DNA of 33,639 nt from Oceanospirillaceae bacterium. GTDB taxonomy: Bacteria > Pseudomonadota > Gammaproteobacteria > Pseudomonadales > Oceanobacteraceae. The stretch lies in contig PAJK01000044.1 of the NCBI GenBank assembly GCA_002706025.1, positions 1 to 33,639 on the forward strand, read 5' to 3'. Made by a program: the position numbers and the translations under genes. Under the pieces are notes generated by a model, which was not told where the DNA came from, searched no databases, and saw only the letters and a list, made by a program, of their open reading frames with translations. Positions 18,694-24,867 of this stretch are shown one piece after another. The stretch's first letter is position 1. Every line of letters begins with the position of its first letter.

Positions 18694-18809
18694 TTGGCAG
18701 CTTTCACAGCTCAGCCGGTTGTAAAAAGTTGCCACCTTAACCCGTATCATTTTATTCCCCTGCCCCTGTGTTACTTTGTTTTGATCAAGGACTGACACAG
18801 GGATCGGTT

Positions 18810-19364
18810 ATGGCTTCCGTACGTACCAGTACCACTCATCCTCTGCAAATCGCTGAAGTGCCCGCCGGGCCTGGTTACGGCACCATAGGTATTACTTTCT
18901 GCCCCGGTAAGCACGACCGCATGGCGCATACCGGTGCCTGGGCGCGGGATCTGGGGACGGATCTCGATGTGATTAAAAACTGGGGCGCAGCGCTGGTGCT
19001 GACGCTGGTTGAAAGCGACGAACTGGTGATGCTGAAAGTGCCCGATATGGGTATCGAGGTTGAACGCCGGGGTATGCAATGGTGCCATCTGCCGATCCGC
19101 GATTATTCCATTACCACCGATGAATTTGAGCAGCAGTGGCTGACGGCAGGCAAGCATATCCGCAGCCTGCTTCGCGATGGCCAGAATATTCTGGTGCACT
19201 GCAAAGGTGGTCTGGGCCGTACCGGGATGATGGCCGCACGTCTGTTAGCCGAGCTGGGCACTGATCCTGATGAAGCCATTAAAGCGGTGCGCAAGGCACG
19301 CAGTGGCGCCATTGAAACACCGGCCCAGGTGGGGCTGATCCGGCGCACGCTGGCCATTGACTGA
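18810..19364 (+). CDS. Dual-specificity-type protein phosphatase (CDKN3-like)
   Basis: The 184-residue protein has the cysteine phosphatase P-loop HCKGGLGRTG (His130, Cys131, Arg137, Thr138) and a likely general acid Asp98 in PIRDYS. The following ARSGAIETPAQ motif is typical of the cyclin-dependent-kinase-inhibitor-3-like bacterial branch. No signal peptide is seen, so it should be cytoplasmic. The frame extends to a GTG at 18768; the ATG at 18810 is preferred. An inverted repeat CCTGTGT (18765-18771) / ACACAGG (18795-18801) covers the ribosome region. The next gene, a kinase-fold protein, overlaps its end, which suggests the two act on one target. Confidence 0.88.
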   Translation: MASVRTSTTHPLQIAEVPAGPGYGTIGITFCPGKHDRMAHTGAWARDLGTDLDVIKNWGAALVLTLVESDELVMLKVPDMGIEVERRGMQWCHLPIRDYSITTDEFEQQWLTAGKHIRSLLRDGQNILVHCKGGLGRTGMMAARLLAELGTDPDEAIKAVRKARSGAIETPAQVGLIRRTLAID

Positions 19365-20052
19365 TGGCCGGTTGTTAGTGGATCGCCTGTCAGTGGATCT
19401 TTCTGCCCTGACGCGTATCGGCGGACGTTTAGGCAGTAACCCCGCTGGCGTGTACGAAGATGCGGCGGGTCAGCGTTATTACGTTAAAGAAACCGAATCC
19501 GTCGCCCACGCCCGCAATGAATATCTGGCCGCCATGCTTTACCAGCTGGCCGGGGCTCCCACACTTTGTTATCTGCACAGCAGCGATCCCTGCTGTATCG
19601 TCACGCGCTGGTGCGAACTGGCGAAGAAGAACGTTCAGCATTTTTCCGCTAGAGAGCGTGCTCAGGCGCAGCATTGGTTTGCGCTGCATTGCTGGCTGGC
19701 CAACTGGGATGCTGCGGGCTTTCACGGCGATAATCAGGCAGTGGCCGTCGCCGATGGCCGGGTGTTAACCCTCGACAGCGGCGGTGCACTGAACTTCCGC
19801 GCTCAGGGGGACCCAAAAGGAAAGGCGTTCGGGAAAGAGGTACATGAGCTGAATACGCTGCGGCAGGATGCAGATAATCCGTTTGCCGTGCAGCTGTTTG
19901 GTGCGATGGATGATACTGAGGTCAGGCGTTCGCTTGCGGTGGTTACCGGGCTGGCAGACCGGGCAATTGAAGCGGTGATTCTGCAGCATCACGGCAGTGA
20001 AAAGCTGGTGGCAAAAATGCTGGCGCGTAAAGCCTTTATGCTGGAATGGTAG
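19357..20052 (+). CDS. PI3K/HipA-like kinase-fold protein, partner of the phosphatase
   Basis: The 231-residue protein is not a named family to me but carries kinase-like features: a Gly-rich N-terminal loop (IGGRLGSNPAGVYED), a Lys in YYVKE (Lys44) as the possible ATP-contacting lysine, Glu55, a catalytic-loop-like NWDAAGFHGDN (Asp118, Asp125, Asn126) and a metal-site-like LDSGGAL (Asp140). This order resembles the PI3K/HipA-type fold. The start is TTG at 19357, overlapping the phosphatase stop by 8 bases; GTG at 19378 is an alternative. No ATG is available nearby. The overlap implies coupled translation of a phosphatase and a putative kinase. Confidence 0.75.
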   Translation: MTDGRLLVDRLSVDLSALTRIGGRLGSNPAGVYEDAAGQRYYVKETESVAHARNEYLAAMLYQLAGAPTLCYLHSSDPCCIVTRWCELAKKNVQHFSARERAQAQHWFALHCWLANWDAAGFHGDNQAVAVADGRVLTLDSGGALNFRAQGDPKGKAFGKEVHELNTLRQDADNPFAVQLFGAMDDTEVRRSLAVVTGLADRAIEAVILQHHGSEKLVAKMLARKAFMLEW

Positions 20053-20330: not shown

Positions 20331-22065
20331 ATGCAGTTATTCCGACACCTGAGTTGGTTCTTCCGCCGTTATTGGTACACCTACAGTCTGGCGCTGGTGA
20401 TGCTGTTTATCGTCGCACTGGTCAATATGGCGGTGCCGCAGCTGATCGGGCGGGCCATCGACCGTCTGTTAGCCACCGGAGAGCAGGCCTCAGTTGAGCC
20501 GTTCCTGCTGGGGCTGGTGGCGGCCGGTGTGGTTGTCTATCTGCTGCGTTACGGCTGGCGGCGTATGCTGTTCGGTACATCGTACAAATTGGGGAATTAC
20601 CTGCGCCGCGATTTTTATCAGCGTCTTACCCGTCAGGGGCAGGCGTTTTACAACGGTCATTCCACCGGCGATCTGATGGCGCGCCACCAATGATATTGAT
20701 GCGGTGGAAATTGCCGCCGGCGAAGGCATTCTGTCCGGCTTTGATGGTCTGCTGACCTTTATTCTGGTCATCATCATGATGTTCGTGTTTATCGACTGGC
20801 GCCTCGCGGCCCTGGCGGTACTGCCGTTTCCGTTTATGGCGGTGGGTTTTTATAAACTGTCGAACCGCATTCACGATCAGTTCGGTGACAGTCTGGATCG
20901 ATTCTCGGCGCTGAACGATCACACCCAGCAGTCGATTACCGGCATCCGTATGATCAAATCCATGGGGCGCGAGCGTATTGAAACCGCGCAGTTTGATGAT
21001 ATTGCCGCCCATGCTGCCAGCAGTACTTATAACGTGCAGCGTTCGGAAGCCATGTTTCAGCCGATTATTCAGCTCAGTTTGGGCGCGGCCATGCTGATTG
21101 TACTGCTCACCGGTGGCTGGCTGATTCATAACGATGAACTGACCGTCGGGCAGCTGACCAGTTTTACCCTGTATTTATCAGAACTGATCTGGCCGATGTA
21201 CGCGTTCGGCTGGCTGATGAATATTCTGCAGCGCGGCAGTGCCGCCATGACACGCCTGAATCAGACCCTGAGTCTGCCGGATACCATCACAGATGCGGGT
21301 ACCACGCTGCCATACCACCATACCATCCGGGTGGAGCAGCTGACGTTCCATTATCCACAGGCGCAGCGCGTCGCCGTGCACGATGTCTCTTTTACCCTGC
21401 GCGAACATCAGGTGTTGGGCATTGCCGGCGCTACCGGCTCGGGTAAATCCACACTGCTGCAATTGCTGATGCGTTATTGGGAAGCGGAAAACGGCATGAT
21501 CCGCATCGGCGATGTGCCGCTGGCGAACATTCCGCTGGCCGAGCTGCGGGCGCAGTATGCTTATGTGCCGCAGGACGGCTTTCTGTTCAGCACCAGTATT
21601 CTGGAAAATATCCGTATGGGGCGTCCGGACGCCACCGATGAGGATGTGTATGAAGCCGCCAGACTGGCCGCCGTACACGATGATATTGCCCGTTTCCCGG
21701 ATGCTTATAACACCCTGGTCGGTGAACGCGGTGTGACCCTGTCCGGTGGCCAGCGCCAGCGTGTATCCATCGCCCGCGCGCTGATCAGTCACGCGCCTGT
21801 ACTGATTCTTGATGATGCGCTGTCAGCAGTGGATGTGGAAACTGAAAAGCAGATCATTGGTCATCTGAAGCAACGTAAAGAGCAGACTTTAATTATTGTG
21901 ACGCACCGTTTATCCGCCATTGAAGACGCCGATGAAATTCTGGTCATGGCCCATGGCGATGTAATGGAGCGCGGTGATCATCAGCAACTGCTGACCGCGG
22001 ATGGCTGGTACAGCCGCATGTTTGCCTATCAGCAGATGGAACAGAATCTGGAGGCGGCCTCCTGA
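20331..22065 (+). pseudogene. mdlA: mdlA-type ABC exporter gene with a frameshift
   Basis: Two frames together encode one MdlA-like half-transporter. The first (20331-20693, 120 residues) ends GHSTGDLMARHQ-stop. The second continues with NDIDAVEIAAGEG, where the family has LMARATNDIDxV. Adding GC to the run GGCGCGCC at 20678-20685 restores GDLMARATNDIDAVEIAAGEG and a protein of about 578 residues. So 2 bases appear to be missing from a GC-dinucleotide repeat. The downstream part is intact, with the remaining membrane helices, Walker A GATGSGKST, signature LSGGQRQR and Walker B LILDDALSAVD, and it overlaps mdlB by one base. Walker B has Asp instead of the catalytic Glu, as in E. coli MdlA. Sequencing error, recent inactivation and reversible slippage are all possible. 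Confidence 0.85.
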
Positions 22066-23952: not shown

Positions 23953-24867
23953 TCAGGAAATACAGTTGCGGCCGTGGTCTTTGGCTTTGTACAGATTACG
24001 GTCGGCCTGATTCAGCAGGTCGTCCAGCGTGGTCACTGCCGGTAACTCGGTACAGGTAGTACCAAAGCTGGCGGTGCAGTGCAGGGCCTGATTATTAAAG
24101 CTGGCGGGTGTCTGATCCAGACGGGCACGCAGCCGCTCGGCCAGTTGTGTTGCCTGGCTGAGGCGGGTTTGCGGCAACAGCAGCACAAATTCTTCGCCGC
24201 CCATGCGCGCGGCAATATCCGCTTCTCTGACCGTGGCCAGCATAAGGCGGCTGACGTGGGTCAGTACCGCGTCGCCGGCAGCATGGCCATACTGATCATT
24301 GATGCGTTTGAAATGATCCAGATCGAGCATAATCAGCGACACGGGTTGATTAAACCGGGTGGCTTCGCGCAGCAGCTGTTCGCCCAGAGTAAAAAACGCC
24401 CGGCGGTTGCGCAGGCCAGTCAGCATATCGGTGGTGGCCAGCTGTTCGGCTTTCAGGCGTTCCTGTTCCAGCTGGTGTTCCATTTCTTTGCGCAGGGAAA
24501 TATCGGTAGCGATTTCAATGCGTACCATACGGCCGTCATTCCAGCGGATGGCTTTGTCGATGCACTGAAACCACTGTTCAGTGACGGTATTCTGGAATTC
24601 CCAGGTATAAACGCCGGTACTGTTTCCTTCATCATCCACCAGGCGTGGGTTGGTGCAGAAAGAACACGGTCCGGTCTGATCTTTCTGTAATACTTCCCAG
24701 CAACGTTTTCCGGCGGCTGGTGTGTATTTTTCCCGGCCGTACTTATTCATGTACAGCAGTTCGTTGGATTCAATATCGGCGACGTAAATCAGTGCTTCGA
24801 CATTATCCAGAATAATGTCGTGCGGTAGTCCGTCGGGGACATCTTCGGACGAGGTGGGTATATCCAT
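23953..24867 (-). CDS. PAS-GGDEF diguanylate cyclase
   Basis: The 304-residue protein has an N-terminal PAS-like sensor (about 17-125), a short coiled linker (126-145) and a C-terminal GGDEF domain (about 146-304). The active site is GGEEF (223-227) with an inhibitory RxxD site (READ, 214-217) five residues upstream, so it should make cyclic di-GMP and be product-inhibited. No membrane segment is present. The PAS part carries Cys56, Cys68 and Cys71 (RCWEVL and GPCSFCTN), which could bind a metal or sense redox state. It converges on mdlB with 13 bp between stops. AGG lies upstream of the ATG at 24867; the ribosome site is modest. Confidence 0.92.
   Translation of the reverse strand: MDIPTSSEDVPDGLPHDIILDNVEALIYVADIESNELLYMNKYGREKYTPAAGKRCWEVLQKDQTGPCSFCTNPRLVDDEGNSTGVYTWEFQNTVTEQWFQCIDKAIRWNDGRMVRIEIATDISLRKEMEHQLEQERLKAEQLATTDMLTGLRNRRAFFTLGEQLLREATRFNQPVSLIMLDLDHFKRINDQYGHAAGDAVLTHVSRLMLATVREADIAARMGGEEFVLLLPQTRLSQATQLAERLRARLDQTPASFNNQALHCTASFGTTCTELPAVTTLDDLLNQADRNLYKAKDHGRNCIS

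Follow-up and report, generated by a model that had tools for sequence, protein, structure and literature searches.

Reversible ADP-ribosylation of dinitrogenase reductase (NifH) by the DraT/DraG system turns nitrogenase off and on again. Among regulated ADP-ribosylations of proteins the system is a textbook example, and it is also an engineering target for ammonia-excreting nitrogen fixers (PMC6490700, in the sections drawn on here). On the side of phage defence, systems combining an ADP-ribosylglycohydrolase (ARG) with a rhodanese-phosphatase (R-P) have been put forward as a means of reversing ADP-ribosylation by phages (Iyer et al., 2022; PMC9503650, likewise in the sections drawn on here). 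The present analysis concerns a pair of adjacent genes, PTP and KIN, in a stretch of 33,639 nucleotides from an Oceanospirillaceae bacterium (contig PAJK01000044.1), referred to as the window. PTP encodes a CDKN3-like phosphatase and KIN a protein with a predicted kinase fold. The PTP-KIN pair tracks DraT/DraG nitrogenase ADP-ribosylation, and it is proposed here as a probable accessory of that switch.

The PTP-KIN gene pair and its predicted folds

The two genes and their key residues are located in the window as follows.

18810 to 19364, plus strand: PTP, a CDKN3-like dual-specificity/PTP-fold phosphatase gene, 184 amino acids, assigned from Pfam and from the predicted fold of a fused relative
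19200 to 19202 and 19218 to 19220, plus strand: Cys131 and Arg137 of the PTP catalytic H-C-x5-R motif
19357 to 20052, plus strand: KIN, a CtkA/HipA-type kinase-fold gene, 231 amino acids, TTG start, assigned from its predicted fold
19486 to 19488, 19708 to 19710 and 19774 to 19776, plus strand: K44, D118 and D140 of KIN, whose key residues also include E55 and N126
19357 to 19364, plus strand: overlap of the PTP and KIN frames, 8 bases, in different frames

Both open reading frames (ORFs), the TTG start of KIN and the 8-base overlap had been described in a first-pass annotation made from the letters alone, and reading of the ORFs confirms them. The start of PTP is taken as the ATG at 18810, a start point found also in relatives such as locus L002; a GTG upstream at 18768 is the mechanical start of the ORF, and the stop codon occupies 19362-19364. 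The overlap of the two frames is consistent with translational coupling.

The pairing is conserved. Genome contigs were scanned with an alignment of five pair members, which gave 90 confirmed relatives, and 80 loci were kept. Given the five-member query, these loci favour close relatives, and nearby species are counted repeatedly (several Methylomonas, for example). The genera represented are Methylomonas, Allochromatium, Rhodobacter, Rhodoblastus, Rubrivivax, Zoogloea, Derxia and others similar to them; Rhodospirillum rubrum and Azospirillum do not figure among the 80 loci kept of the 90, which is not evidence that they lack the pair. PTP is immediately upstream of KIN or fused to it in 80/80 loci, and a PTP-KIN fusion in one frame is present in about 22 of the 80 (count of script 23, with L097 removed as its PTP lies in two frames). 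Four further genomes carrying a KIN of the same clade, taken from draws of genomes at class and phylum level, all have PTP next to KIN. The first-pass annotation had named two grounds on which its reading would fall, loss of adjacency in all relatives and lack of a kinase fold in a predicted structure. Neither applies: adjacency is lost in none of the 80 loci, and the model of KIN described below has a kinase fold.

PTP exceeds several Pfam cut-offs, among them those of Tc-R-P (47.3 bits) and PTP-SAK (42.6 bits), both against 27 bits, DSPc (36.1 against 33.5) and CDKN3 (26.5 against 20.7). The H-C-x5-R motif is intact in 79/80 PTPs, the exception being L097, where the PTP match runs across two frames. 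A model of the natural fusion protein of Rhodobacter capsulatus (22-row alignment) has a predicted local distance difference test score (pLDDT) of 86.8 and a predicted template modelling score (pTM) of 0.83. Its first domain matches KAP/CDKN3 (1fpz; Z 20.0, 2.5 Å, 169 aligned residues) and its second domain matches CtkA (Z 14.1, 3.9 Å, 210 aligned residues).

The AlphaFold2 model of KIN itself (72-row alignment) reaches a mean pLDDT of 94.1 and a pTM of 0.90. Comparison of this model by Foldseek and VIA-align 2 gives Helicobacter pylori CtkA as the top match (Z 15.2, 3.4 Å, 203 aligned residues), followed by HipT (Z 11.5), actin-fragmin kinase (11.4) and HipA (10.9); KIN is 9-15 per cent identical to these four structures. 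The model also contains C-terminal helices at 164-229. As modelled, KIN is a protein of CtkA/HipA-type kinase fold. Together with the Pfam matches of PTP, the KIN model and the model of the R. capsulatus fusion show that the first-pass annotation had read both folds correctly, the CDKN3-like phosphatase as well as the kinase fold.

The kinase assignment is one of fold and of conserved residues. KIN has nothing over cut-off in Pfam and nothing listed in NCBIfam, PADLOC or PHROGs. Searches against PDB sequences, by phmmer and by profile, gave no significant match (best E 0.34 and 0.47), the profile match at E 0.47, below threshold, aligning with the N-terminal part of a protein called Effector protein B; the likeness to CtkA is a fold match only. 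At E up to 10, neither Pfam nor NCBIfam listed a match of KIN to the HipA family proper. The PI3/4-kinase profile likewise gave no Pfam match at that limit, with a fold-level likeness of Z about 9. A reading of KIN as a lipid (PI3/4) kinase was rejected, the similarity being at fold level only. Residues K44, E55, D118, N126 and D140 are invariant in the 72-row alignment; the NWD-N and DxGG patterns occur in 80/80 KIN loci and the Lys pattern in 77/80. The lysine, NWD...DN and DSGGAL motifs singled out earlier are thus among the most conserved residues of the family. Their catalytic roles are presumed from kinase motifs, and on the same footing we take their order to be that of CtkA/HipA-type kinases.

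Co-occurrence with DraT and nitrogenase genes

Profiles for DraT (PF07357) and nifH (TIGR01287, at its cut-off) were searched in 49 genomes, those of the 50 best-scoring loci L021-L070 minus L063, with L071-L100 left out. DraT is present in 47 of the 49 genomes carrying the pair, and nifH scores over its cut-off in 48. The background frequency of DraT is far lower: 19/369 genomes in the class draw and 28/329 in the phylum draw when the genome of the window is included, and 18/368 and 27/328 when it is not; the two draws share some genomes. The difference between 47/49 and the backgrounds that exclude the window's genome has Fisher p values of about 1e-44 (class) and 5e-38 (phylum), which treat related genomes as independent. 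The other genomes of the KIN clade in the draws are all DraT positive (2/2 in the class draw, p 0.002; 2/2 in the phylum draw, p 0.007). Two weak KIN matches in the class draw lie in long ORFs, with no PTP in the fetched DNA. Among the 44 genomes of the window's own family, nifH is found in 10, DraT in 6 and KIN in 4, each set lying inside the preceding one.

Physical linkage is observed in a minority of loci, with counts that vary with the length of the fetched DNA, which is short for some of them. draT is found in the fetched DNA of 14/80 loci and draG in 13/80. A genome of the window's family (L004) has the gene order draT, PTP, KIN, flavodoxin. The fused PTP-KIN gene faces draG-draT in Rhodobacter sp. 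CZR27, and in R. capsulatus (L061) it lies tail to tail with draTG. In the genome of the window, draT, draG and a flavodoxin gene are together on another contig and nifH is on a third.

Rhodoblastus acidophilus DSM 142 carries two KIN loci with PTP (L031 and L094) and two DraTs, and one of the PTP-KIN loci is near draT and a nifH-like gene. The arrangement looks as if the module had been duplicated with an extra nitrogenase system.

Relatives outside the pair and the proposed role

KIN has a large family in phages. Viral contigs searched with a wider KIN alignment yielded at least 576 relatives, of which 80 loci were kept. The KIN domain lies within an ORF of at least 384 amino acids in 79/80 of these viral loci, several of the ORFs being cut by the end of the locus, and no viral KIN locus has a PTP match in its fetched DNA (0/80). 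Closed ORFs of our own choice from these loci, 34 in all, were scanned against Pfam. The families found in the 34, in classes that can overlap, were NUDIX (16), ADPrib_exo_Tox (15), Phage_portal_3 (9), DUF2213 (5), ART (5), NUDIX_4 (4), Phage_Mu_F (3) and Acb1 (2). These counts of ADP-ribosyltransferase (ART) and NUDIX domains are from Pfam, as a motif scan missed most of the domains that Pfam finds. The family may extend to archaeal viruses: the predicted structure R4T6E8 of Haloarcula hispanica tailed virus 1 in BFVD has a KIN-like fold (TM 0.64 by query length). On a Streptomyces plasmid, an ORF of 1875 amino acids (L012, 72-5699) has a KIN domain at its end and a weak glutamine-deamidase match, a composition that hints at a protein resembling polymorphic toxins.

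A midpoint-rooted tree, built from 80 rows by maximum likelihood, places the 28 diazotroph KINs in one clade (100/99) among phage sequences. The fork joining this clade to the nearest phage group is weak (89/70), and deeper forks are strong (98/90 and 100/98). Since the diazotroph clade is nested among phage sequences, we infer domestication of a kinase domain of phage origin, which came to be coupled to PTP. The same nesting could point to a defence or addiction module of phage origin that merely travels with diazotroph genomes and takes no part in nitrogenase control. The patchy distribution of the pair resembles that of defence genes, and ARG-plus-phosphatase systems have been proposed as anti-phage (PMC9503650). 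Yet neither protein is matched in PADLOC, and from a mere passenger one would expect neither co-occurrence with DraT in 47/49 genomes nor a place in the draT-PTP-KIN-flavodoxin cluster. Because of the missing PADLOC match and the distribution that tracks DraT, a toxin-antitoxin or defence function was demoted and is judged very unlikely.

PTP also has relatives of its own. The class draw contains 24 PTP matches in 21 genomes, and three of the matches belong to KIN pairs. Of the 21 PTP relatives outside KIN pairs, four are beside or fused to an ADP-ribosylglycohydrolase in the fetched DNA. Plasmid records add further cases: in Roseomonas the genes for ARG and PTP overlap, and in Leisingera and Fuscovulum PTP is fused to ARG and accompanied by WYL regulators. 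Such an arrangement is the one of the ARG and R-P systems of Iyer et al. (PMC9503650). Another plasmid PTP relative adjoins transposase genes. Three of the four hydrolases are 51-54 per cent identical to the DraG of the window genome (L020, 12219-13166). These three (L220, L222 and L237), each adjoining PTP, come from class-draw genomes that are not listed with DraT. The DraG of the window genome is only 30-33 per cent identical to Rhodobacter DraG, and from these identities two DraG lineages seem to serve DraT.

ADP-ribosylation is common to three contexts: phage proteins in which KIN occurs with ART or NUDIX domains, the PTP relatives that accompany hydrolases, and the DraT/DraG genomes that carry KIN together with PTP. 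This common ground is read most economically if KIN adds a phosphate within an ADP-ribosylation cycle and PTP removes it. On balance we regard it as probable that PTP-KIN serves the DraT/DraG switch as an accessory module for reversible phosphorylation, where the activity, the link to DraT and the target are what we infer. KIN would be an active CtkA/HipA-type kinase taken over from phage proteins, and PTP a Cys-dependent phosphatase opposing it, with coupling or fusion keeping the two in constant proportion. Between them they would determine whether a component of the ADP-ribosylation cycle is phosphorylated, the candidate targets being DraT, DraG, NifH, a PII protein, the ADP-ribose mark or KIN itself, and this state would let the cell hold or release the nitrogenase switch. 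The first-pass annotation had left the target as a protein, lipid or small molecule. Its pair and its kinase and phosphatase folds stand, but the target is now less open, because the pair tracks DraT/DraG and the phage family of KIN often occurs with ART or NUDIX domains. As to the acceptor, the closest folds speak for a protein and the shared context for ADP-ribose.

Several observations weigh against an accessory role at DraT/DraG. Two KIN genomes lack DraT; both are metagenome-assembled genomes (MAGs) that have nifH, one titled Sunxiuqinia (L023) and the other Desulfovibrionales (L047). The KIN genome without nifH is a 2.3-Mb Gallionellaceae MAG (L066) in which DraT is present. The pair is found in only 3/19 (class) and 3/28 (phylum) of the DraT genomes, the window's genome included, so DraT works without it, and genome G068 (L045) has two DraTs with one KIN locus in the list. 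The fetched DNA of 66/80 loci showed no draT, and neither did the window. Outside KIN pairs, 17 of the 21 PTP relatives have no hydrolase in the fetched DNA, and one plasmid PTP relative is part of an arsenic operon. Phage polyvalent proteins are known to carry ARTs as a recurrent theme (PMC5512222, in the sections drawn on here), and the ART and NUDIX counts given above cover KIN proteins only. Promoter signals add to this side. For 81 PTP genes, those of the 80 loci and of the window, the preceding 350 bases were compared with plain letter shuffles, and TGGC-N7-TTGC was found in 2/81 (0.44 expected) and a NifA-type upstream activating sequence in 5/81 (4.1 expected), so that a nif promoter signature upstream of PTP is not convincing. 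A loose sigma-54 form occurs in 38/81 regions (24.8 expected by shuffles that keep letter but not dinucleotide composition), and it is not counted as support.

How the phosphate would act is a separate matter. In one form, KIN would phosphorylate DraT, DraG, NifH or PII on Ser/Thr and PTP would dephosphorylate the same protein, with ADP-ribose untouched. We consider this a substantial possibility, somewhat short of an even chance. The nearest solved folds of KIN (CtkA, HipT, HipA and actin-fragmin kinase) are annotated as protein kinases, and KAP/CDKN3, the nearest phosphatase fold, has been solved with phospho-CDK2 (1fq1). PII proteins, moreover, already control DraT and DraG (PMC6490700). 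A single protein target would, however, leave unexplained both the phage KIN proteins with ART and NUDIX domains and the PTP relatives that accompany ADP-ribosylglycohydrolases without KIN.

Alternatively, KIN may autophosphorylate in its glycine-rich loop (GSNPGG) and PTP may reactivate it, having no other substrate. HipA-type kinases autophosphorylate in their loop, and position 27 of the KIN loop is occupied by Ser in 12 of 13 rows and by Thr in the remaining one. Coupling and fusion of PTP and KIN would suit such self-control, and the reactivation can be likened to that of KAP, the best fold match of PTP, on CDK2. We hold it to be doubtful in view of how common PTP is without KIN (21/24 class matches) and of the phage KIN domains that have no PTP in the fetched DNA of any viral locus. 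Phosphorylation of a protein target and self-control are both sub-forms of, or close to, an accessory module at DraT/DraG, and the probabilities given here do not add up to one.

A further and unlikely mechanism is a phospho-ADP-ribose lock. KIN would phosphorylate arginine-linked ADP-ribose and so block DraG-type hydrolases; PTP would reverse the modification and DraG would then act. Phages would deliver the KIN domain with an ADP-ribosyltransferase, protecting the marks placed on host proteins, and hosts would answer with a paired phosphatase and hydrolase. Diazotrophs would have domesticated both halves, such that nitrogenase could be locked off reversibly.

The surroundings of the pair include other genes. 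Neighbour clustering used the ORFs of the 80 loci, with clusters of at least 6 loci, and antisense ORFs in GC-rich DNA interfered with it. Apart from PTP and KIN it returned draG (7 loci) and a cluster in 11/80 loci with a GGDEF-EAL representative (L079). Downstream of PTP-KIN in the window is a GGDEF diguanylate cyclase gene (23953-24867, minus strand), and a GGDEF gene directly faces the kinase gene in genome G041 (L002, 2170-3165, minus strand). The presence of GGDEF(-EAL) genes near the pair may be due to chance. The window also holds an ABC transporter gene, which we take to be MdlA-like, split into two ORFs in different frames: 20331-20693, with the ABC_membrane domain, and 20704-22065, with the remaining membrane domain and the ATPase. 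The split may be a real lesion or an assembly error.

Comparison with described systems

A kinase and a phosphatase that track DraT/DraG across Proteobacteria would be an undescribed layer of control. R. capsulatus offers a good test case because its fused PTP-KIN gene lies tail to tail with draTG, and the arrangement makes an old question testable. A testable claim that goes with the unlikely phospho-ADP-ribose lock is that PTP-KIN would underlie the DraT/DraG-independent switch-off reported in R. capsulatus. The phage relatives suggest in turn that a link between phosphorylation and ADP-ribosylation may be more general in conflicts of phage and host. The first-pass annotation knew of no characterised system of this composition, and no paper on the PTP-KIN pair was found in the open-licence literature among the matches listed.

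The pair is found in the same genomes as DraT/DraG (47/49) and sometimes in the same cluster (14/80). In the sections of PMC6490700 drawn on here, the DraT/DraG systems of Rhodospirillum rubrum, Azospirillum brasilense and R. capsulatus consist of transferase, hydrolase and PII proteins, with no kinase or PTP-type phosphatase. KIN shares its fold, by model comparison, with CtkA, HipA/HipT and actin-fragmin kinases; unlike the CtkA/HipA/HipT kinases, it has no sequence-profile match and its partner gene encodes a phosphatase. PTP has CDKN3/DSPc profiles and the KAP fold in common with KAP/CDKN3 and the small PTP-fold phosphatases SsoPTP and TkPTP. It differs from them in being bacterial, coupled to a kinase-fold partner and located in DraT genomes.

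The ARG and R-P systems contain a phosphatase of the same broad kind, and some PTP relatives are beside or fused to ADP-ribosylglycohydrolases. In contrast to those systems, the direct partner of PTP is KIN and not ARG, both in the window and in 80/80 loci; in the window genome the hydrolase gene draG is at another locus and the cognate transferase is present. The account of ARG and R-P systems names, in the sections drawn on here, no kinase partner of the KIN kind (PMC9503650). In phages, the KIN domain occurs in polyvalent proteins and in MuF- or portal-fused ART proteins of the type described by Iyer et al. (2017; PMC5512222). The polyvalent-protein kinase described in the sections of that paper drawn on here lacks a C-terminal subdomain, whereas the KIN model keeps a helical C-terminal part.
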